40,099 nucleotides of DNA, from assembly GCA_003252375.1 (NCBI GenBank), contig QKEJ01000103.1, forward strand, positions 1-40,099. Reading direction: 5' to 3'. Below are positions 11,422-40,099 of the stretch, piece by piece (the stretch's first letter is position 1; every line of letters begins with the position of its first letter). Source of the stretch: Halodesulfovibrio sp. (GTDB taxonomy: Bacteria > Desulfobacterota > Desulfovibrionia > Desulfovibrionales > Desulfovibrionaceae). The translations under genes were made by a program, and so were the position numbers. The notes below the pieces were generated by a model. That model saw only the letters and a list, made by a program, of their open reading frames with translations, was not told the origin of the DNA and made no database searches.

Positions 11422-12569
11422 GCCAGTCCCAATTCCTTCGATATGCCGAGGATCTTGCCGCCGTATATGACATGGAGCGGCAGCGCAGGACGCAGCTCAA
11501 GCAGGTGTACGAGGATATCGCCAACATCGTCCACATGATGCAGGAAGGGGCGCTCATCACCAACAATAAGGGGGTGGTCCGCGAGGTCAACCAGGCGGCC
11601 TGCGACATGCTCGACATGCCCCGTGCCCGCATGCTCGGCGGCAACCTTGAAGAACTGTTCCGCAAGGCCGGCGCATCCCACTCCGGTACAATCCATCCTG
11701 CGCAGACTCCCTTCTCGGCCAATCAGGTACAGACCATCATTCTTTCATCCGGGCGCATCATCAGATCCACATGCTGTTCCATGAAGAACAACTGGACGCT
11801 TTGCATGCTCCGTGACGCCACCAAGGAAGTGCAGATGGAAAACATCAAGCAGGACTTCTTTGCCCTGCTGTCACACGAACTGCGCACGCCATTGACCGGT
11901 GTCCTCGGATTCACGGAATTGCTGATGAGCCAGCAGGGAAGCAACCCTGCCCTGGAGGCCGAGGCTCTCAAAAGCATCCATGAATCAGGTCTGCGCATGT
12001 TCAAGATCGTGGACGAGCTCCTGCGCTTCGCCTCACTGCAGGGCGAGCGGCACGAAATGCAGCAGGAGCCCCTGCAGGTTCCCCTGCTCATCCGTAGCGT
12101 TTTCGAACTGCTCGAACCCGTTGCCGAGCGTAGAAACATTTCCCTGTTCATAGACCACGACCAGTCCAATCCGGTCATCCTGCGCGGCAATTCCGCCATG
12201 CTGCGCGAGATGCTTCGTCACATCATCCAGAACAGCATCGTGTTCGGCAAGGAAAACGGCAACGTCGCGATCAGAGTCCGCCAGTCACAGGGAAAGCAGG
12301 CTGTCATTGAAATTGAAGACGACGGCATCGGCATCCCGAGCAACCTTATGGACAAGGTGTTCGACAGTTTCTACCAGGTGGAGGATACCCTGAGCAGACG
12401 GCATCAGGGACTGGGACTGGGACTTTCCATCGCCCGGATCATCGCGCGCATCCACGGCGGCTCCATTTCACTGAGCAGCGAGGTTGGGCAGGGCACCACC
12501 TGCACCATAACGCTCCCCATGGGGAACCCCGCCCCCGAAAGGAACGCACAGCAGGAGGTGAAGGCATGA
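11391..12569 (+). CDS. PAS-domain sensor histidine kinase, soluble
   Basis: The 392-residue protein has a short coiled N-terminus, a PAS domain (about 42-145, EGALITNNKGVVREVNQAA), a HisKA dimerisation domain with His162 in SHELRTPL, and an HATPase_c domain with the N box (HIIQNSIVFG), DDGIGIP, and GLGLGLSIARII. No transmembrane helix is visible, so it should act in the cytoplasm. The H-box and ATP-binding motifs are intact, so it should autophosphorylate. Its start lies inside the receiver gene (31-bp overlap) and its TGA overlaps the ATG of the phosphatase gene, so all three are coupled. The adjacent receiver is the obvious partner. Confidence 0.92.
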   Translation: MGYGDIDRAVSQSQFLRYAEDLAAVYDMERQRRTQLKQVYEDIANIVHMMQEGALITNNKGVVREVNQAACDMLDMPRARMLGGNLEELFRKAGASHSGTIHPAQTPFSANQVQTIILSSGRIIRSTCCSMKNNWTLCMLRDATKEVQMENIKQDFFALLSHELRTPLTGVLGFTELLMSQQGSNPALEAEALKSIHESGLRMFKIVDELLRFASLQGERHEMQQEPLQVPLLIRSVFELLEPVAERRNISLFIDHDQSNPVILRGNSAMLREMLRHIIQNSIVFGKENGNVAIRVRQSQGKQAVIEIEDDGIGIPSNLMDKVFDSFYQVEDTLSRRHQGLGLGLSIARIIARIHGGSISLSSEVGQGTTCTITLPMGNPAPERNAQQEVKA

Positions 12570-24878: not shown

Positions 24879-26325
24879 TTACTTGAAGTCCGTCGCGTCT
24901 ATGTCCAGACGGGAAAGAATCTTCTGCAGCGCCACGCGGGAGAGGTCGGAGATGCGGGCCGCTTCCGAAATATTGCCCCCCGTCGCGGTCAGCAGTTCCC
25001 GCACGTATCGATCCGTAAAGGCATCGGTGATCCGGCTCTTCGCCTCCTTGTAGGCTTCCAGCCGGAAATGCGGAATACCGGGCTCCTGCGCGGACAGCCC
25101 CTGCGCCTTGGCCCCCTGCTCCAGCAAAGCCACAACATCCATGGTCAGTTCATCATGCTGGCAAAAGACCACGAGGCGGCGAACATAACTCTGCAGCTCG
25201 CGCACATTGCCGGGCCACTGACGGGACTTCAGATACCCAACCACCTCGGGAGACACGCCCTTCTCGCCCAGGCCCATGTCATGGCAGGCAAGACGCAGGA
25301 AATGCTGTGCCAGCAGCGGGATGTCGTCAATGCGCTCCCGCAGCGACGGCACGGTCACCGACAGGACATTGAGCCGGTAGTACAGGTCCTCGCGGAACTG
25401 CCGGCTGGCGATGCGCCCTTCCAGATCCTGGTTGGTCGAGGCCAGCACGCGGGTCCGCACGGACAGGTTGGCGTTGGATCCGACCGGACGGATTTCTCCT
25501 TCCTGCAGCACGCGCAGCAGCTTGATCTGAATATTGGGGGAAATGTCGCCAATCTCGTCCAGCAGCAAGGTTCCCTTGTCCGCCGTGGCGAAGAGCCCCT
25601 TGCGGTCCTGCTCCGCCCCCGTAAAGGCGCCCTTGACGTGGCCGAAAAGCTCGCTTTCCAACAGGTGCTCGGGAATGGCCGGGCAGTTCACTGCCAGAAA
25701 CGGGTGCGCCGCACGCTGGCTGGCCCTGTGGATCATGCGGGCCACCACTTCCTTGCCGGTTCCGGACTCTCCCCGGATAAGCACCGTATATTCGGAATTC
25801 GCCACGGCCTGAATGGCAAACCGCAGGCGCTGCATCACGGCCGATTCGCCGATCATCTCCCCTGCCTGCACGCTGCCGACCAGCTCCCGCAGCCGCCTGT
25901 TCTCCATCAGTAACGCCGCCCGTTCGAGCCCCTTTTCCACAATGCGGAACAGGTGCTCCGGTTCCACGGGTTTGGTCAGAAAATCGTACGCTCCCACCTT
26001 GAGCGCTTCCACGGCTGTCTCAATGGTGCCGTGTGCGGTCAGCATGACCATGGATAAATCGGGTCTGCGCTCCAGCGCCTCACGCAGCAGGTCCATGCAG
26101 GTCCATGCCGGAAAGCTCCGGCATGCGCAGATCCGTCAGCATGAGGTGGTACTCCTGACTGCCGAGCATGGCCAGCGCCTCGGTGCCGCTGTGCGCCATG
26201 TCCACGCGCAGCCCCTTGAACCGACCTGCAATAAGGCGCGTCAGGCCGCGGGCAAAGTCCCGCTCGTCATCAACGATGAGGACACTGAGCCCTGTCTTGT
26301 CACTGGTTGCAATTGCTTCAGGCAT
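24879..26325 (-). pseudogene. Sigma-54-dependent response regulator broken by a 10-bp tandem duplication
   Basis: The gene would encode a 478-residue NtrC-type regulator: receiver (Asp19-Asp20, phosphoacceptor Asp65 in LMLTDLRMPELSG), AAA+ domain with GESGTGKE (Walker A) and VKGAFTGAEQDRKG (the sigma-54 contact motif), and a Fis-type helix-turn-helix at the end (GGNISEAARISDLSRVALQKIL). The frame is lost inside the receiver at 26087-26107, where a 10-bp unit occurs twice; removing one copy restores SGMDLLREALERRP exactly. As it stands, the first frame stops at 26080 after the phosphorylation site, and a second frame of 405 residues could begin at an ATG at 26096, overlapping by 17 bp. The second product would keep the AAA+ and DNA-binding parts but lack most of the receiver. 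The upstream kinase is its likely partner. Confidence 0.88.
26087..26106. repeat. 10-bp tandem duplication (GCAGGTCCAT x2) causing the frameshift
   Basis: On the plus strand the unit GCAGGTCCAT occurs at 26087-26096 and again at 26097-26106. One extra copy adds 10 bp, which is not a multiple of three, and so shifts the frame of the regulator at this point. Confidence 0.92.
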
Positions 26326-26349
26326 GCGAATTCGTCTTCCCTCTCATCA

Positions 26350-28839
26350 TTATTCCTGCTGGTCTCCCGCTACCGGGACAACGGGCACACGCATCACAAA
26401 CCGTGCACCGCCGAGAGACGCATCACGCCCGACGTCGATGGTCCCGCCCACTTCTGCCAGCATGCCATACACGATGGCAAGCCCCAGTCCGGTCCCTGCC
26501 CCGGGTTCCTTTGTGGTATAGAAGGGGTCGAAAATCCTGCTCCAGTCCGATTCGGGAACTCCGGGGCCGTTGTCCCTGACGGTGACATGCACGCCATCAC
26601 CCTCCTCCTGCACGTCCACAACCACCTCGCCCCGGCGGACAGGAACGGCATCCAGCGCGTTGAGCACCAGGTTGGAGAGCGCCTGTTCCAGTTCGTTCTC
26701 CCCTATGCCCGCCATCACCGGCTCGGACGGCGCCCTGCTCAGCAGGGATACGCCCTTCTTTGTGGCCTGCACCGAAAAGATCTCCGCAATCCGCGTCGCC
26801 ACGGCCCCGACATCACATGCCCCATGCGAAGACGACTTGGGACGGGCGAAATTGAGCAGATCCTTGAGCACCCGCTGGGCATGCCTCGTATGCCGCAGAA
26901 TGACATCCAGGTCCTGCAACGCTTGATCGTCACCAAGGTTCTGCCGGAGCAACTCGGCATAGCACAGGATGACTCCCAACGGATTGTTGATCTCGTGCGC
27001 GAGCCCGGCGGCCAGCTTGCCCACGGTGATCATTTTCTCGCTCTGCTGCATCTGTGACAGCATGCGCTTTTCACGCGTGGTTTCCCGGGCATAGACAACG
27101 ATCCGGCCAAGGGGACTGCGCGCCTGCCCGCTGGCCAATTCATCCAGCAGGTCACCTGCCTGCGGACCGTCCTGGCCGGGCATCTGCGAGACAATGGGAT
27201 ACATGTTCAGGGCAAAGCTCCTGCCGCTTTCCAGCACCACCTCTTCCACATGCGGCATCCCGCTGGCAAGAGTGGCCGAAATATGACAGTCCCCATGCGG
27301 TCGTGAACAGCCAAAGAGCTCCAACAGGGCCCCGTTGGTGACCTGACCGCCGGAAAGCTCCATCGCCAGATCCCGGGCCGCCTGATTGGCCGTAACCAGC
27401 CCGTACCCGGAATCCATCAGCACCAGCGGGTCGGTAATCCCCTCCACGATGGACTGCAGCGTCCCCTTCTGGCGCATCAGGTTATCAAGGGCGGTCATGT
27501 TCTCGGCAGCCATACCCAGCTGACGCCCCAGCGCCTGGAGCAGGCCGTAGTCCTGCCTGCGGGCCACCCTTGCATCATCCCAGCAGATGCACAGCAGGCC
27601 CTCGGCGTTCCCCTCGCTGGATTCCACGGGAATGACCGCCCTGTCGGCAGCCAGAAGCGTGCGGCTCTCGGTAAGCAGATCCACCCAGTTGTCCGGCAAC
27701 TCCGGCATGATGGACTGCTCCGGCCAGGAAAAATGATTCTGGGAGGCAAAGGTGCAGACATAGGAAACGCTGGAGGCCCGGAATCTCCGGCCGATCTCGG
27801 GCAGGGTCGAGCGCCACAGGTCGGCGCGGGTATTGCTCGAACGCATGTCCGCCAGCAGGTGCACAAACAACTCCACGTCGGCACGGCGTTCCTGCGCCTC
27901 GCGGAGCAGTTCGCCGGTCCGGTCCTCCACCATGCCGCGCAGGTTTTCCGCGTAGCCCTCCAGCTGGCGGCGGGCGTCCAGCAGGTGGCTGTTCAGCTCC
28001 TGCATCCCTGCTTCCAGCTCCTCTATCTCATCCCGCTCTACCAGCTTGTTCAGCAGTTCGGTTCCGCCGGTTACCTCAAGGTTGTCGCTGAACATGGCCG
28101 ACAGACGCCGGATGTTGTTCATGACCAATACCTTGAACAGCAGGTTGGTAATGGAGAAGAACAGGACGGCCCCAAGGGCGAAAAAGCCGAAATAGCCAAG
28201 GATGGTCCGCTGCAGGTTCGCCACGCTGTTGGTCACGGACAGGCCCACCAGGTCCACTCCGCCGATGGTGTCCTGCACATGGTTGAAGCCCCGGTCACCG
28301 TAGAGGGCCAGCAGTTCCTTGGGGGCATCGTCCCGTGCGCCGTGACAGCGCATGCACCCCTCTTCAAACACCACGGGGCGCGCCATGATGTAGAACTCGG
28401 CCCCGTCCACGTCGCGGTATCCCTGCCAGAGGGATTCCCCCGCATGCGTGCGGAAGTGATCGATAAGCTCACGCTCCAGCAGATTGGCTTCAAACTTGGG
28501 ATTGCGTGCGGAGATTGCCACACGACGATAGATGTGCCCGTCGTCTCCGCCCATGCCATCCATGATCTCCCGGGAGATATAGGAGGAACTCATGGCCTCG
28601 ATGACGAACTGGTCCGGCAGCACCTCGAACATGCGCGGGCGCAGTGTTGAGCGGACATACCGCTGCACGGCATCAACCTGATGGAAGATGAGGCGGGCCT
28701 TGCCGCGCACTTCGGCTTCCAGCACCGTACGCATGTGCAGGTAGAAGCCGACGGCAAAGGCGACGCCGAGAACCATGGTCGCCGTGGCAAGTCCCGAAAG
28801 GAATTTGGCCTGAAGTGTCGAGGGGCGGGGAAACTGCAT
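26350..28839 (-). CDS. Membrane sensor histidine kinase with CxxCH-bearing periplasmic domain
   Basis: The 829-residue protein has a first membrane helix (about 14-36), a predicted periplasmic domain (37-210), a second helix (about 212-236), a HAMP-like/coiled stretch (240-320), a GAF-like region (about 320-460), a PAS domain (about 470-590), a HisKA domain with His615 (LAHEINNPLG) and an HATPase_c domain (DNGPGVP, GTGLGLAIVYGM). The periplasmic part ends with GCMRCHGARDD, a c-type haem-binding CxxCH (Cys162, Cys165, His166), followed by GDRGFNHVQDTIGG, as in DUF3365/Tll0287-like sensor domains. It may sense redox state or a haem ligand. It lies 24 bp upstream of the broken regulator, its presumed partner. 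Confidence 0.9.
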   Translation of the reverse strand: MQFPRPSTLQAKFLSGLATATMVLGVAFAVGFYLHMRTVLEAEVRGKARLIFHQVDAVQRYVRSTLRPRMFEVLPDQFVIEAMSSSYISREIMDGMGGDDGHIYRRVAISARNPKFEANLLERELIDHFRTHAGESLWQGYRDVDGAEFYIMARPVVFEEGCMRCHGARDDAPKELLALYGDRGFNHVQDTIGGVDLVGLSVTNSVANLQRTILGYFGFFALGAVLFFSITNLLFKVLVMNNIRRLSAMFSDNLEVTGGTELLNKLVERDEIEELEAGMQELNSHLLDARRQLEGYAENLRGMVEDRTGELLREAQERRADVELFVHLLADMRSSNTRADLWRSTLPEIGRRFRASSVSYVCTFASQNHFSWPEQSIMPELPDNWVDLLTESRTLLAADRAVIPVESSEGNAEGLLCICWDDARVARRQDYGLLQALGRQLGMAAENMTALDNLMRQKGTLQSIVEGITDPLVLMDSGYGLVTANQAARDLAMELSGGQVTNGALLELFGCSRPHGDCHISATLASGMPHVEEVVLESGRSFALNMYPIVSQMPGQDGPQAGDLLDELASGQARSPLGRIVVYARETTREKRMLSQMQQSEKMITVGKLAAGLAHEINNPLGVILCYAELLRQNLGDDQALQDLDVILRHTRHAQRVLKDLLNFARPKSSSHGACDVGAVATRIAEIFSVQATKKGVSLLSRAPSEPVMAGIGENELEQALSNLVLNALDAVPVRRGEVVVDVQEEGDGVHVTVRDNGPGVPESDWSRIFDPFYTTKEPGAGTGLGLAIVYGMLAEVGGTIDVGRDASLGGARFVMRVPVVPVAGDQQE

Positions 28840-34783: not shown

Positions 34784-35650
34784 ATGGCACGCACCTACAT
34801 TGATCTGCACACGCACTCCACCGCCTCGGACGGCAGCGACTCTCCGGAAGACCTCATCCGGCAGGCCAGGAAGGCGAACGTCACCACGCTGGCCCTCACG
34901 GACCATGACACCACCGCCGGGGTGGAAGAAGCCATGGAGACAGGGCGCGAGGTCGGGGTTGAGGTCATTCCCGGCTGCGAACTGAGCGTGGGCACCGAGT
35001 ACGGGGAACTGCACATCGTGGGATTGTGGATCGCCCCCAAGGCCCCCGCACTGGCCGAGGCCATGCAGCTGCTGCGGGACCACAGGGCCACGCGCAACAT
35101 CCGGATTGTCGAAAAACTGCAGGAGCTCGGCTACGCCATCACCTATGACGAGGTGCTGGAGCTTGCCGGCGAAGGCTCCGTCGGCCGCCCGCACATTGCA
35201 CGGGTCCTTCTGAACAATGGCTTCCGGGGCACTCTGCACGACGTGTTCTCCAGCCTGCTCGGCGATCATGGCAAGGCATACGTCCCCAAGCGCATCCTTT
35301 CACCCGAGGAAGGAGTACGCCTGCTCAAGCAGGAAGGGGCCACGGTGTCACTTGCACACATGTACCTGCACGGCTATCCCGACGAATGGCTCCAGGACAT
35401 GGTCGCCACCCTTGCAGCCCAGGGAATGGACGCCATCGAGGCCTATCACAGCGAACACGACAGCCGCTCCACGCGGCGCGCCGTGGACCTTGCCGCACGA
35501 CACGGCCTTGCCCTGACCGGCGGTTCGGACTATCACGGCGCGGTCAAGCCGAACATCATGCTCGGACGCGGCAAGGGCGGACTCTACGTGCCCCCCTTCG
35601 TACTCGACGACCTCAAGACCCTGCGGCGCTCCCAGGGCCTGCCGGCCTGA
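34784..35650 (+). CDS. PHP-domain phosphoesterase
   Basis: The 288-residue protein has the PHP metal-binding motifs in order: DLHTHSTASDGSDSPEDL, LALTDHDTTAGVEEA, GCELSVGTEYGELHIVG, a central helical insert with GSVGRPHIARVL, and TGGSDYHGAVKP near the end. This matches the YciV/TrpH-like group, some of which remove nucleotides from short RNA or hydrolyse 3',5'-bisphosphonucleotides. No clear ribosome-binding site is seen before the ATG at 34784. The U32 gene follows after 32 bp, so the two are probably one operon. It diverges from the Trm112-like gene. Confidence 0.9.
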   Translation: MARTYIDLHTHSTASDGSDSPEDLIRQARKANVTTLALTDHDTTAGVEEAMETGREVGVEVIPGCELSVGTEYGELHIVGLWIAPKAPALAEAMQLLRDHRATRNIRIVEKLQELGYAITYDEVLELAGEGSVGRPHIARVLLNNGFRGTLHDVFSSLLGDHGKAYVPKRILSPEEGVRLLKQEGATVSLAHMYLHGYPDEWLQDMVATLAAQGMDAIEAYHSEHDSRSTRRAVDLAARHGLALTGGSDYHGAVKPNIMLGRGKGGLYVPPFVLDDLKTLRRSQGLPA

Positions 35651-35682
35651 CCCTCACCTTTCACCACCGGATCTTTCTGCTC

Positions 35683-36975
35683 ATGCCTATTTCCCTGCCG
35701 GAACTTCTCTGTCCTGCCGGCGACATGGATCGCCTTGACGCCGCCCTGACATACGGGGCCACCGCCTGCTATCTCGGCGGCAAGTCGCTGAGCCTGCGGG
35801 CAGGAACCGGCGGCTTCGACTGGCCTGAGCTTGAGACGGCCTGCAGCAAGGCGCACGCACAGGGCGCATCCATCTATTATACATTGAACGTGCTCCCCCA
35901 CGAGACCCACCTTCCGGGCATTGCCGAATCCCTTGAGCGGCTCGCGGACTCCGCTGTGGACGGGCTGATCATTGCCGACCCCGGCGTCCTGCGCATGGCC
36001 CGGCGCTATGCCCCGGACAAGCCCGTGCATCTGAGCACACAGGCCAACACGGCCAACAGCGAAGCCGTGGGGTTCTGGTACGACCTGGGCATCCGGCGGG
36101 TGAATCTTGCCCGGGAACTGGGCGTACGCGCCATGCGCGATCTGCTCCGCACCTACCCCGACATGGAATTCGAAATCTTTGTCCATGGCGCCATGTGCCT
36201 TGCCCTGTCGGGCCGCTGCCTGCTCTCCGCATGGCTGAACCGTCGCCCGGCAAACCTTGGCGAATGCACGCACCCATGCCGTTTCGAGTATCGTGCCACC
36301 GAACTCTCCGGCCGCTGCCACGACTGCGCCGACGGACTGGGCGAACCGCACGGACATGCGGGCGAAATGCGTCTTGGGGTCGAGGAACGTTCCCGGGACG
36401 AAGGCACCATGTGGGAGATCACCCGGGAGGAACCCTACAGCGCTTTCTGGGCTCCGGAGGATCTCTGTCTGGTGCGCTACATGCCGTGGTTTGTCCGCAA
36501 CGGCATTGCCTCGCTCAAGATCGAGGGGCGCATGAAGACGCCGAGCTACGTGGCACACGTCACGGATGCCTACAGGACGGCCCTTGATGACGTGGCGGCC
36601 GGACGCTTCAGACCGGACCGCTATCTCTTCGAACTGCGGAACACGGCCTCCCGCAACCTGAGTACGGGATTCTTTCTGCCCGGCGGCAAGCGAATATCGC
36701 TCCCCCCGCTGCCCGCCGAAGAACGCCGCCCCATTGTGGCGCAGGTGCGTGAACAGGTCGGCAACGCCGCATGGCGCATCTCCGTCCGCTCCCCATGGGA
36801 GCTTCAACGGCCCATCCAGATCATGCAGCCCGGCCTGCGCCGCCCCGAACTGGCGGCCGGAACCTACGGACTGGAAAATCACCGGGGCGAGGCCTGCACC
36901 CTGCTGCATCCGGGCATGGACGGCCTGCTGCGCTGCGACTCCGACCAACTGGCAGAAGGATTGTTCCTGCGCTAA
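35683..36975 (+). CDS. U32-family protein (TrhP/RlhA-like)
   Basis: The 430-residue protein has the U32 signature: EIFVHGAMCLALSGRCLLS, then NLGECTHPCRFEY, with cysteines that in relatives hold an iron-sulfur cluster. The N-terminal PELLCPAGDMDRLDAALTYGATACYLGG and the later SLKIEGRMKTPSYVAHVTDAYR are typical. Although called peptidases, characterised bacterial members (TrhP, RlhA) are needed for hydroxylation of tRNA or rRNA with prephenate-linked chemistry. Here the target RNA is unknown. It lies after the PHP gene and 63 bp before the hybrid kinase. Confidence 0.9.
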   Translation: MPISLPELLCPAGDMDRLDAALTYGATACYLGGKSLSLRAGTGGFDWPELETACSKAHAQGASIYYTLNVLPHETHLPGIAESLERLADSAVDGLIIADPGVLRMARRYAPDKPVHLSTQANTANSEAVGFWYDLGIRRVNLARELGVRAMRDLLRTYPDMEFEIFVHGAMCLALSGRCLLSAWLNRRPANLGECTHPCRFEYRATELSGRCHDCADGLGEPHGHAGEMRLGVEERSRDEGTMWEITREEPYSAFWAPEDLCLVRYMPWFVRNGIASLKIEGRMKTPSYVAHVTDAYRTALDDVAAGRFRPDRYLFELRNTASRNLSTGFFLPGGKRISLPPLPAEERRPIVAQVREQVGNAAWRISVRSPWELQRPIQIMQPGLRRPELAAGTYGLENHRGEACTLLHPGMDGLLRCDSDQLAEGLFLR

Positions 36976-37038: not shown

Positions 37039-38616
37039 ATGACAGAGCATACCAGCCCCATACGCCCGCCCCAGCACCGGGAAGAGCATGACGTCCGCAG
37101 TTTCTTCGACAACGCGGTCGAAGGCATGTTCCGCAAATCCCGCTCGGGCACGTTTCTGCTGGTCAACCCCGCCATGTCCCGCATCTTCGGCTACCCTTCC
37201 CCCGGGGCCATGCTGCAGCAGTTTCCGCAGGACCGGCAGAGCATCCTGCTGGACGCCCCCAAGTTCCTCGACATGCTGGACCAGCTCAAGACCCACGGCA
37301 GCATCCACAATTTCGAACTCCAGTTCCGCCGCAAGGACGGACGGCTGATATGGGCCCTCATCAACGCCCGAGCCGTCTACACGACCAAGGGCTCCATACG
37401 CCATTACGAAGGCACCCTCGTTGACATCACGCAACGCAAGGAAACCGAATTCCAGCGCGCCTTCATTGAGGAACAGCTCCGCCAGGCCCAGAAGCTGGAA
37501 GCCGTGAGCATTCTTGCGGGCGGCATGGCCGCCGACTTCGGCGCCCTGCTCCCCCCCATCATCAGGAACACCGAGGAAGCACTCCGCGCCCTGCCGGAGA
37601 ACCACACCGTGCGCCGCAACCTGAACGAGGTGCTCGGGGCGGCCAACCGCGCCAAGGCGCTGATGCACCAGGTCCTCACCATCAGCCGCCAGCGCGAGGG
37701 AGACAAGCGCCCCGTGGCCATGGCTCCCATTGTCACGGAGGCCCTCGACGACATTCGCCCCCTGCTCCCTCCCGGACTGCTGCTGCGCGAAGACCTTTCC
37801 GCCCAGCCCGATACCGTGCTGGCCGATCCGACCCAGATACGGCAGGTGCTGGACAACCTGATGAGCAACGCCATGCGGGCCGTGGAGGATGACGGCACCA
37901 TCAGCATCAGCCTGCGCAATGTTGAGCTGGACGAACGCACGGCCGCCTTCAGGGCGGACCTCAGCCCGGGACACTATATCCGGCTGACCGTACAGGACAC
38001 CGGCTGCGGCATGTCCGAACAGGTGGCCACACGCATTTTCGACCCCTTTTTCACGACCGAGACCAGCAGGGGAGCACAGGGACTGGGCCTCTCCGTGGCC
38101 CACGGCATTGCCCGCGCCCACGACGGTGGCATCACCGTGCTTTCCGAACAGGGACTCGGCTCCACATTCTGCCTGTACCTGCCCTCCCATGCCCGGGAAG
38201 TGGACCAGAGCCAACCGCTGGCCCCGGCACCGCGCCTGGGCAGCGAACGCATTCTGGTTGTGGACAATGACCCTCGCGAACTCCGCAAATGGCGGGGACT
38301 GCTCGCACCACTCGGCTACCGGCTCGACACCATTTCAGGGAGTGTGGAGGCCCTGCGGGTCTTCATGGAGGCTCCAGCCACCTTCGACCTCGTGGTCACG
38401 GCCTTCGGCATGCCCCAGATGGACGGACTGGAGCTGGCCCGTACCATGCTGGGCATTCAACCCACGGCCAGAATAGCCCTGTGCCGGGACGCCGCCGATG
38501 CGGTCACGCCGGACCTTGCCCGGGAATCGGGCATCTGCTGCATTTCGCGCAAGCCACTTGATTCACAGGACATGCTGCACCTTCTGGAGACAGCATTGGA
38601 CGCCACTGCGGACTAA
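37039..38616 (+). CDS. Hybrid histidine kinase lacking the phosphoacceptor His and receiver Asp
   Basis: From the ATG at 37039 the protein has 525 residues: PAS (about 18-135, FFDNAVEGMFRKSRSGTFLLVNPAM), a dimerisation helix region (about 145-220), an HATPase_c domain (about 255-385) and a receiver (about 400-520). The H-box, usually LAGGIAHDFNN, reads LAGGMAADFGA: the histidine is Ala165. ATP-binding motifs are kept (LDNLMSNAMRAV, DTGCGMS, FDPFFTT, GAQGLGLSVAHGI). In the receiver, DND and a lysine (SRKP) remain but the phosphoacceptor is Ala455 (VVTAFGMP). It should bind ATP without normal phosphotransfer. The sigma-54 regulator follows after 24 bp. An earlier ATG (37003) is less likely. Confidence 0.9.
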   Translation: MTEHTSPIRPPQHREEHDVRSFFDNAVEGMFRKSRSGTFLLVNPAMSRIFGYPSPGAMLQQFPQDRQSILLDAPKFLDMLDQLKTHGSIHNFELQFRRKDGRLIWALINARAVYTTKGSIRHYEGTLVDITQRKETEFQRAFIEEQLRQAQKLEAVSILAGGMAADFGALLPPIIRNTEEALRALPENHTVRRNLNEVLGAANRAKALMHQVLTISRQREGDKRPVAMAPIVTEALDDIRPLLPPGLLLREDLSAQPDTVLADPTQIRQVLDNLMSNAMRAVEDDGTISISLRNVELDERTAAFRADLSPGHYIRLTVQDTGCGMSEQVATRIFDPFFTTETSRGAQGLGLSVAHGIARAHDGGITVLSEQGLGSTFCLYLPSHAREVDQSQPLAPAPRLGSERILVVDNDPRELRKWRGLLAPLGYRLDTISGSVEALRVFMEAPATFDLVVTAFGMPQMDGLELARTMLGIQPTARIALCRDAADAVTPDLARESGICCISRKPLDSQDMLHLLETALDATAD

Positions 38617-38640: not shown

Positions 38641-40099
38641 ATGGCACGAATTTTCATCATAGATAGCGACGCCGTCTTCTGCGAAGCCCTCGGGGCCATC
38701 GTTGCAGGCCTCGGCCACACGGCTGAGCACGCCTGCTCCCTTGCATCCGCCCTCAATAGTCCCGGCCTGCGCGGCGCCGACATCATCTTTCTGAACACCC
38801 TGATGCACGACGGCAACGGCCTTGATCTCCTGCCCCGCCTGCGCACGGCCCCGGGCAGGCCCGAAGTGATCATGGTTACGGATGCGGCCACGGCGGACGG
38901 CGCGGAACGCGCCATTCGCAACGGCGCCTGGGACTACGTGGCCAAGCAGGGCGCAGTGGACCGCATGGTGCTCCCCCTCATCCGGGCGCTGGAATACCGC
39001 GGCCGCAGACCCAACAAGCGCGAGGAAGTCCGCCTCAAGCGCGACTCCATCATCGGCAGCAGCCCGGAACTGACCCGCTGTCTCGACATTGTCTCGGAAG
39101 CAGCCGCCTCCGACGCCTCCGCGCTCCTGTACGGAGAGACCGGCGTGGGCAAGGAAGTCTTCGCCCGCGCCATCCACGACAACAGCCAGCGCCATTCCGG
39201 GCCGTTCGTGGCCGTGGACTGCGCCTCGCTTTCACGCACGCTCGCCGGCTCCACGCTCTTCGGCCACCGCAAGGGGGCCTTCACGGGTGCGGACAAGGAC
39301 AGGGACGGCCTTGTGGCGCAGGCGCACAGGGGCACCCTTTTTCTGGATGAAGTGGGCGAACTGCCCATTGCCATGCAGAAGATCTTCCTGCGGGTACTGC
39401 AGGAACACCGGTTCCGTCCCGTGGGCGGACGTGCCGAGATCACCTCGGACTTCCGGCTCATATGCGCCACCAACCGCAATATCGAGGAGATGGTCTCGCG
39501 CGGCACCTTCCGCAGCGACCTGCTCTTCCGCATGCGCACCGTGGTCATGCATATCCCGCCGCTGCGAGAACGCGACGCGGACATTCCCGAACTGGCAGAG
39601 CACTACATCCGGCGTATCTGCGGCAAGTACGGCATGGGCTCCAAGGGCATTTCCACGGACTTCACCTCGGCCCTCAGACAGTACCAGTGGCCGGGCAATG
39701 TCCGTGAACTCATCCATACGCTGGAGCGGGCCGTCCTGGCCGCGCAGGACGACCCGAAGCTCTTCTCGCGCCACCTGCCGGATCATCTCCGCATCAGCAT
39801 TGCCCGCGCAGCCGCCATGGCCGGAGCACAGGGAGACCGGGAAACGCTGCCCGGCACCCCTGCCCCTGCTACAGGCACGCAGCCGGATTCCATCCCCGGT
39901 AAGGAGAGCCCGGCCGCTGCATGGCCTCCTCCCCTTGCAGACGATACACACGGTGACACATTCACGCCGCCCCTGCGCCCCGGCGCTGCGTGTTCCATCG
40001 CCGATGCCACCGACATGGGCCATGCCCAGCAGGCAGCCCCGGCAGGCGTGACAGGAGCGAAACAGCGCGCATCAGGCGGAAATCAGACAGCCCCCGCCT
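38641..40099 (+). CDS. Sigma-54-dependent regulator with Asn in place of receiver Asp, C-terminus outside window
   Basis: The visible 486 residues comprise a receiver-like domain (about 1-120), a sigma-54 AAA+ domain (about 140-380) and a long linker rich in Pro, Ala and Gly after residue 385; the DNA-binding helix-turn-helix is expected past the window edge. In the receiver the phosphoacceptor is Asn52 (IIFLNTLMHDGNG) and the lysine is followed by Gln rather than Pro. The AAA+ motifs are intact: GETGVGKE (Walker A), RKGAFTGADKDRDG, GTLFLDEVGEL (Walker B), RFRSD-like FRSDLLFRM and WPGNVREL. It should be able to activate sigma-54 promoters, with control other than phosphorylation of Asp. GGAG precedes the ATG. 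Confidence 0.9.
   Translation, partial: MARIFIIDSDAVFCEALGAIVAGLGHTAEHACSLASALNSPGLRGADIIFLNTLMHDGNGLDLLPRLRTAPGRPEVIMVTDAATADGAERAIRNGAWDYVAKQGAVDRMVLPLIRALEYRGRRPNKREEVRLKRDSIIGSSPELTRCLDIVSEAAASDASALLYGETGVGKEVFARAIHDNSQRHSGPFVAVDCASLSRTLAGSTLFGHRKGAFTGADKDRDGLVAQAHRGTLFLDEVGELPIAMQKIFLRVLQEHRFRPVGGRAEITSDFRLICATNRNIEEMVSRGTFRSDLLFRMRTVVMHIPPLRERDADIPELAEHYIRRICGKYGMGSKGISTDFTSALRQYQWPGNVRELIHTLERAVLAAQDDPKLFSRHLPDHLRISIARAAAMAGAQGDRETLPGTPAPATGTQPDSIPGKESPAAAWPPPLADDTHGDTFTPPLRPGAACSIADATDMGHAQQAAPAGVTGAKQRASGGNQTAPA

Follow-up and report, generated by a model that had tools for sequence, protein, structure and literature searches.

A pseudo hybrid histidine kinase adjoins a sigma-54 regulator with a pseudo-receiver in Halodesulfovibrio

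Results

Domains and lost phosphorylation sites of the kinase-like protein

The window, by which we mean the whole 40,099-nucleotide stretch of Halodesulfovibrio DNA that was analysed, ends with two adjacent genes, for a kinase-like protein and for a sigma-54 regulator, preceded by a gene for a U32 peptidase (Table 1). The kinase-like gene is a single frame running from an ATG through to a stop codon. In its product, Pfam recognizes PAS_9 (residues 30–132) and PAS (18–130), HATPase_c (263–383; 1e-22) and Response_reg (405–516; 2.5e-9). The highest 19-residue hydropathy mean is 1.51, so that the protein is probably cytosolic.

Table 1. Positions in the window of the gene pair, its domains and replaced phosphorylation sites, and the upstream gene
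Feature	Position	Strand	Basis
Upstream U32-peptidase gene (start codon uncertain)	35386–36975	+	ORF; directly precedes regulator in sister genus
Pseudo hybrid histidine kinase, 525 aa (PAS, DHp, HATPase, pseudo-receiver)	37039–38616	+	Translation, Pfam
PAS domain, residues ~18–135	37090–37443	+	Pfam
Codon 165, GCC (Ala), H-box His position	37531–37533	+	Alignment
HATPase_c (ATP-binding) domain	37825–38187	+	Pfam
C-terminal pseudo-receiver of kinase-like protein	38251–38586	+	Pfam, alignment
Codon 455, GCC (Ala), receiver phospho-Asp position	38401–38403	+	Alignment
Sigma-54 regulator with pseudo-receiver, truncated by contig end	38641–40099	+	Pfam, ORF
Codon 52, AAC (Asn), regulator phospho-Asp position	38794–38796	+	Alignment
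Sigma-54 AAA+ domain of regulator, GAFTGA motif	39049–39546	+	Pfam

The H-box of the kinase-like protein reads AGGMAADFGALL, compared with AGGVAHDFNNLL in CckA (5idj); in the alignment, AGGMA-A165-DFGALL faces AGGVA-H-DFNNLL, and residue 165 is Ala instead of His. Likewise, the receiver, DLVVTAFGMPQMDG, has Ala instead of Asp at residue 455, which in the stretch DLVVT-A455-FGMPQMDG aligns with the phospho-Asp position of 24 canonical kinases. All 24, of which 20 come from other genera of the family and 4 from the same genome and which were picked by similarity instead of at random, retain both His and Asp. Alignment to CckA and to these kinases thus bears out what a sequence-only reading of the window had claimed, namely that both sites are replaced by Ala in an intact 525-codon hybrid kinase. 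The Asp is not the receiver's only loss. In one clade DD2 has become N, A, G or P, and the other clade has S-P as its DD pair; R or A stands in place of the conserved Thr. The Lys is retained. With D, Thr and DD2 all lost, the domain still matches Response_reg.

The ATP-binding HATPase motifs are present. Asp166, which follows the His site, and N277, D320, G322, G324, G348, G350 and L351 are invariant among 32 aligned kinases, pseudo and canonical. The G2 box, however, reads AQGLGL in all ten genomes of the genus, versus mostly GTG(M/L)GL in canonical kinases. The ATP-binding half is thus kept, as the sequence-only reading had held, with Ala in place of the first Gly of G2.

Orthologues in the genus and distant relatives

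Each of the ten genomes of the genus that were analysed, that of the window included, has one orthologue of the kinase-like protein, and the other nine are 58–85% identical to it. The two residues expected of a catalytic hybrid histidine kinase are missing throughout: the His and Asp sites hold Ala and Ala in four genomes and Ser and Thr in six. Because the nine further genomes also lack both residues, their loss in the window is neither chance nor a sequencing or assembly error. The sequence-only reading had suggested testing whether Ala is conserved at 165 and 455; the absence of His and Asp is general, and the occurrence of a canonical His and Asp in related genomes, which would have spoken against retention of a changed protein, was found in none of the ten, but Ala itself is confined to four. 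When the two clades are compared, PAS is the best-conserved domain, with 70% identity.

A family search with the kinase, in which the best seven candidates per genome were scored, gave matches in 32 of 199 genomes at E ≤ 1e-75; the nearest relative outside the genus, among these best seven candidates per genome, is 37% identical. A search of genome contigs returned distant kinases only. In the tree, the ten kinase-like proteins cluster together with 100/100 support and are joined to the rest by a long stem (1.36). We also searched 348 genomes of the order with the DNA pattern AGGxA[A/S]DF, which covers Ala or Ser at the His site in that exact context only. It matched in 21 genomes, ten of the matches being the orthologues, and no kinase was found among the matched frames read by eye in the other 11: those of the six g38 genomes all represent a single unrelated protein that by eye resembles a glycosyltransferase, and the remaining five are short or unrelated frames.

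Selection on the kinase-like gene

Ratios of nonsynonymous to synonymous change (omega) were calculated by NG86, with a normal sibling hybrid kinase, which precedes its own sigma-54 regulator in G000, G002 and G009, as the control in the same three genomes, using stop-to-stop frames. Whole-gene omega of the kinase-like gene was 0.054 (G002–G009), 0.130 (G000–G002) and 0.112 (G000–G009), against 0.061, 0.117 and 0.116 for the sibling kinase, and in these pairs none of the four domains (PAS, DHp, CA, receiver) reached 0.15. Pairs with G004 gave 0.18–0.20, with a higher 0.26–0.30 in DHp. Second-clade pairs are near saturation at synonymous sites, and we place no weight on their omegas.

Since these omegas equal those of the sibling kinase, loss of the phosphorylation sites did not relax selection, which is as strong as on the normal protein. 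A dN/dS well below 1 across homologues, which the sequence-only reading had named as a sign of constraint, was thereby observed (0.054–0.130 versus 0.061–0.117 for the sibling), and, taken with ten intact orthologues and invariant ATP-site residues, it upholds the earlier view of selected retention as opposed to decay. The constraint is only suggestive of a continued part in signal transduction.

The adjacent sigma-54 regulator

In the window, 24 bp separate the regulator from the kinase-like gene before it; the other nine genomes have gaps of 3 or 10 bp. Such short gaps suggest co-transcription of the two genes. At its phospho-Asp position it has Asn52 in all ten genomes, and so lacks the Asp usual in NtrC-type regulators. 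At the second acidic-pocket (metal-binding) position stands S, A, G, N or H, with Thr and Lys both retained. A helix-by-helix test for a kinase docking face on the regulator showed that other elements had changed as well. The domain that would act on sigma-54 is well kept, with a Sigma54_activat match of 2.8e-62 in the window and the motif GAFTGA in nine of the ten copies (GSFTGA in G005).

By alignment, the relay has thus lost each of its three usual phospho-acceptors, across the kinase-like protein and the regulator, in ten of ten genomes. That the regulator should be non-phosphorylatable at the usual Asp is a stronger fact than the kinase changes alone, and was absent from the finding of the sequence-only reading.

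Between the AAA+ domain and the C-terminal tail, the nine complete copies of the genus have a linker of 118–333 residues. It is unusually long and variable, and by eye it abounds in Pro, Ser, Ala and Thr; the regulators of the sister genus have a long linker as well. The tail looks HTH-like by eye; no Pfam HTH was found in it at E 0.001 in three of three full-length proteins. The best plasmid matches of the regulator are from Nitratidesulfovibrio vulgaris, with 42% identity.

Gene neighbourhood

The gene directly upstream of the pair is the U32 gene in the window and in G004 and a Memo-family gene in the six genomes of the second clade; G002 and G009 have neither there. The kinase-like gene and the regulator are side by side in all ten genomes although the upstream gene differs between clades; the constant part of the locus is the kinase–regulator unit. 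Downstream of the pair, a CbiK gene is found in nine of nine relatives. A cobalamin riboswitch stands just before CbiK in the four loci searched, directly 5' of the CbiK/FecCD cluster and in both clades (L041, L043, L044 and L047), and CbiK is therefore not an obvious target of the regulator. With our own sigma-54 promoter consensus, the surroundings of the pair gave only matches with 2 mismatches, none convincing. A stand-alone sigma-54 activator of 341 residues that has no receiver is encoded about 4 kb upstream of the pair in the second clade (L047, 4223–5245, + strand).

A sister genus with the regulator and no adjacent kinase gene

Among 149 genomes of the family searched with the regulator, orthologues with 64–65% identity were found in one other genus, g38, in six of its eight genomes; the two g38 genomes with no match are assemblies of more than 800 contigs. 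In all six g38 regulators, Ala occupies both the phospho-Asp and the second acidic position, and the Thr is missing. Both acids (D and DD2) are thus gone in 16 of 16 regulators, ten from the genus of the window and six from g38; the receiver of the window's regulator still matches Response_reg. In the regulator tree these 16 lie on one side of a branch with 100/100 support; on the other side are 24 canonical regulators, all retaining both acids. As dead-receiver regulators are common to both genera, the dead receiver is probably older than their split.

In all six g38 loci, the regulator lies 86–145 bp directly behind the same U32-peptidase gene as that of the window (55–56% identical), and no kinase gene or remnant of one was found between the two. 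Weak kinase matches lie 4–6 kb downstream on the opposite strand in three of the six loci. A check for a kinase gene that had moved gave 22 kinase matches in the eight g38 genomes; 16 were read, of which 15 have the His and one showed no motif. Either the kinase-like gene was lost in g38 or it was gained in the genus of the window.

Structural model and comparison with known systems

A structure model of the kinase-like protein built from 32 sequences has a mean pLDDT of 80.1 and a pTM of 0.42, which allows its domains, though not their packing, to be interpreted; a model from 10 sequences reached only pLDDT 49.9. Kinases with bound ADP or ATP are matched by the CA part, and DivL (4q20) by the DHp–CA part, with Z 21.4 and an rmsd of 3.8 over 195 aligned residues. 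The NifL chain of the NifL–NifA complex (9qq6) is at Foldseek rank 15, with many ordinary kinases ranking higher. All these matches are evidence of fold only. The complex matches both the kinase-like protein and the regulator, as one of many fold matches.

NifL, according to PMC12540587 and PMC8219145, is a PAS protein of kinase-like build that binds ADP through its GHKL domain and, depending on nucleotide, holds the sigma-54 activator NifA trapped in a complex. The window pair resembles NifL–NifA in combining a PAS domain and a kinase-like core that has a nucleotide-binding domain with a sigma-54 activator as partner. NifL acts on NifA without phosphotransfer. The nifLA gene order is sensor and then activator, which is also the order of our pair. 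The two systems differ in that the kinase-like protein has a receiver, absent from NifL, and in that NifA has a GAF domain where our regulator has a pseudo-receiver. The kinase-like protein is not a member of the NifL family: it scores 55.2 bits on TIGR02938 versus a cut-off of 242.45, and other kinases of the genome score higher.

DivL, a Caulobacter pseudo-kinase, functions without kinase or phosphatase activity and binds ATP weakly (PMC4211667). It too is a kinase fold without the phospho-His that is retained for signalling. Its site holds a Tyr, however, and its partner is a working, phosphorylated single-domain regulator; the kinase-like protein, unlike DivL, has Ala or Ser at the site, a hybrid pseudo-receiver and an adjoining sigma-54 activator whose receiver is dead. 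Assignment to DivL by a Tyr at the phospho-His position thus failed.

For the regulator, the closest likeness in kind is to FlbD and DVU1063, sigma-54 regulators with atypical receivers for which phosphate is perhaps not needed (PMC3333781); like them, it is a sigma-54 activator whose receiver lacks active-site residues. Identity with FlbD or DVU1063, and with it a flagellar role, was rejected, as the regulator scores 241.7 bits on the FlbD model (cut-off 750), while a different gene in its genome reaches 426.7. We infer that this better-scoring gene is DVU1063. The best FlbD-like protein is another gene in each genome tested. These best FlbD-like regulators (G000, G002, G007 and G073; L115–L118) match the FlbD model from about position 84–120 onward only, and their receiver part thus looks diverged too.

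Within the same genome, a canonical sibling pair (G000:C22) is arranged in the same order as our pair and likewise comprises a kinase core, a receiver and a sigma-54 regulator, the regulators being about 54% identical. The sibling pair, in contrast, keeps the His and both Asp residues, and the N-terminal part of its kinase is longer and by eye includes hydrophobic stretches, where the kinase-like protein has a single PAS domain.

Discussion

By the definitions given in a 2025 review (PMC12632262), the kinase-like protein, which has a DHp–CA fold and no His, is a pseudo-histidine kinase, that is, a kinase fold missing at least one normal function; and both its receiver and that of the regulator are pseudo-receivers, having a Response_reg profile without key phosphotransfer residues. 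The review puts the absence of phosphorylation sites at 0.9% of HisKA domains (His) and 2.0% of receiver domains (Asp), and calls the manner in which pseudo-receivers switch on and off a mystery. Pseudo-kinases and pseudo-receivers are each already known. The open-access PMC literature searched held no description of this pair, nor of any constrained adjacent pair with all acceptors lost.

The sequences across the genus show lost phosphorelay residues, intact genes and a constrained kinase-like gene. For these features we lean slightly toward one explanation: the pair would descend from an ordinary hybrid-kinase/NtrC-type pair, with the phosphorelay residues gone, no phosphate passed, and the activator controlled by contact. 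In such a pseudo-two-component pair, the PAS domain would sense a cytoplasmic signal, the CA domain would still bind ATP or ADP, and the activator would be governed through direct, nucleotide-tuned binding in the style of NifL–NifA. Nucleotide binding, the PAS signal and direct contact we infer by analogy. The kinase-like protein may be an anti-activator docked on the pseudo-receiver of the activator, where both the sign and the docking point are guesses. It could plausibly work, as the sequence-only reading proposed, as an allosteric switch that depends on ATP and acts on the neighbouring regulator. One kinase clade on a long stem together with one regulator clade would fit a new function that became fixed a single time and was maintained thereafter. 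Also in favour of the contact switch are the invariant ATP-site residues, the omegas level with those of a canonical sibling kinase, the short gaps between the two genes, and the fold match of the NifL–NifA complex to each partner. Several observations count against control by contact: the regulator occurs in the sister genus with no adjacent kinase gene, so that it can presumably work alone; the G2 box is AQGLGL in all ten genomes, the pseudo-kinase DivL being a weak ATP binder; 9qq6 is one of many fold matches; and omega in the DHp is raised in pairs with G004.

More tentatively, and at somewhat less than even chances, the whole pair may have been converted as a unit to a phosphate-free switch like NifL–NifA, as a second, independent evolution of that logic. 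PAS signal and nucleotide state would then gate the sigma-54 activator by contact, a logic that would have evolved separately from NifL–NifA and out of a hybrid phosphorelay.

The main rival to the contact switch that we favour is that the kinase-like gene is a leftover heading for loss, the regulator having become independent of phosphate first and now acting alone, either constitutively or as set by its expression level. The g38 loci speak for this, since in six of six the regulator with the dead receiver directly follows the U32 gene, no kinase gene intervening, and since 15 of the 16 kinase loci read in that genus are canonical at the His and one showed no motif; there the regulator seems to act alone. 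Yet all ten frames in the genus of the window are intact, the ATP-site residues are invariant, and in all four domains (PAS, DHp, CA, receiver) omega is as low as for a working sibling kinase, where a leftover should drift; we regard this account as unlikely.

Still less probable, in our estimate, is an action like that of DivL on other working kinases or regulators, through mixed dimers or competition, with the adjacency to the regulator being historical. Possible partners are plentiful (79 kinase-type matches in the genome at E ≤ 0.001), the DHp–CA fold matches that of DivL, and DivL is active with neither kinase nor phosphatase activity (PMC4211667). However, the adjacent regulator has lost its own Asp too, an indication that the pair changed jointly, and the two genes stay side by side in ten of ten genomes despite the differing upstream gene. 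That an unusual phosphorylation persists, for example on Ser/Thr or on another His/Asp, seems highly improbable: Ser and Thr occupy the two sites in six of the ten genomes, and the ATP-binding residues and Asp166 are retained, but the other four, the window included, have Ala at both sites, and the regulator carries Asn in this genus and Ala in g38, with the DD2 acid lost in 16 of 16.

Here a pseudo-kinase and a pseudo-receiver activator adjoin as a constrained pair, for which the sister genus provides a natural comparison with no adjacent kinase gene. Control of a pseudo-receiver through direct contact thereby becomes testable in one small system, which, if the favoured contact switch is true, would be an example of a phosphorelay turning into such a switch.

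Elsewhere in the window, kinase-like and sigma-54-regulator-like matches lie at 24903–27090 (− strand) and 11829–12521 (+ strand), and the kinase-like match at 26095–27090 has stops inside the matched span.
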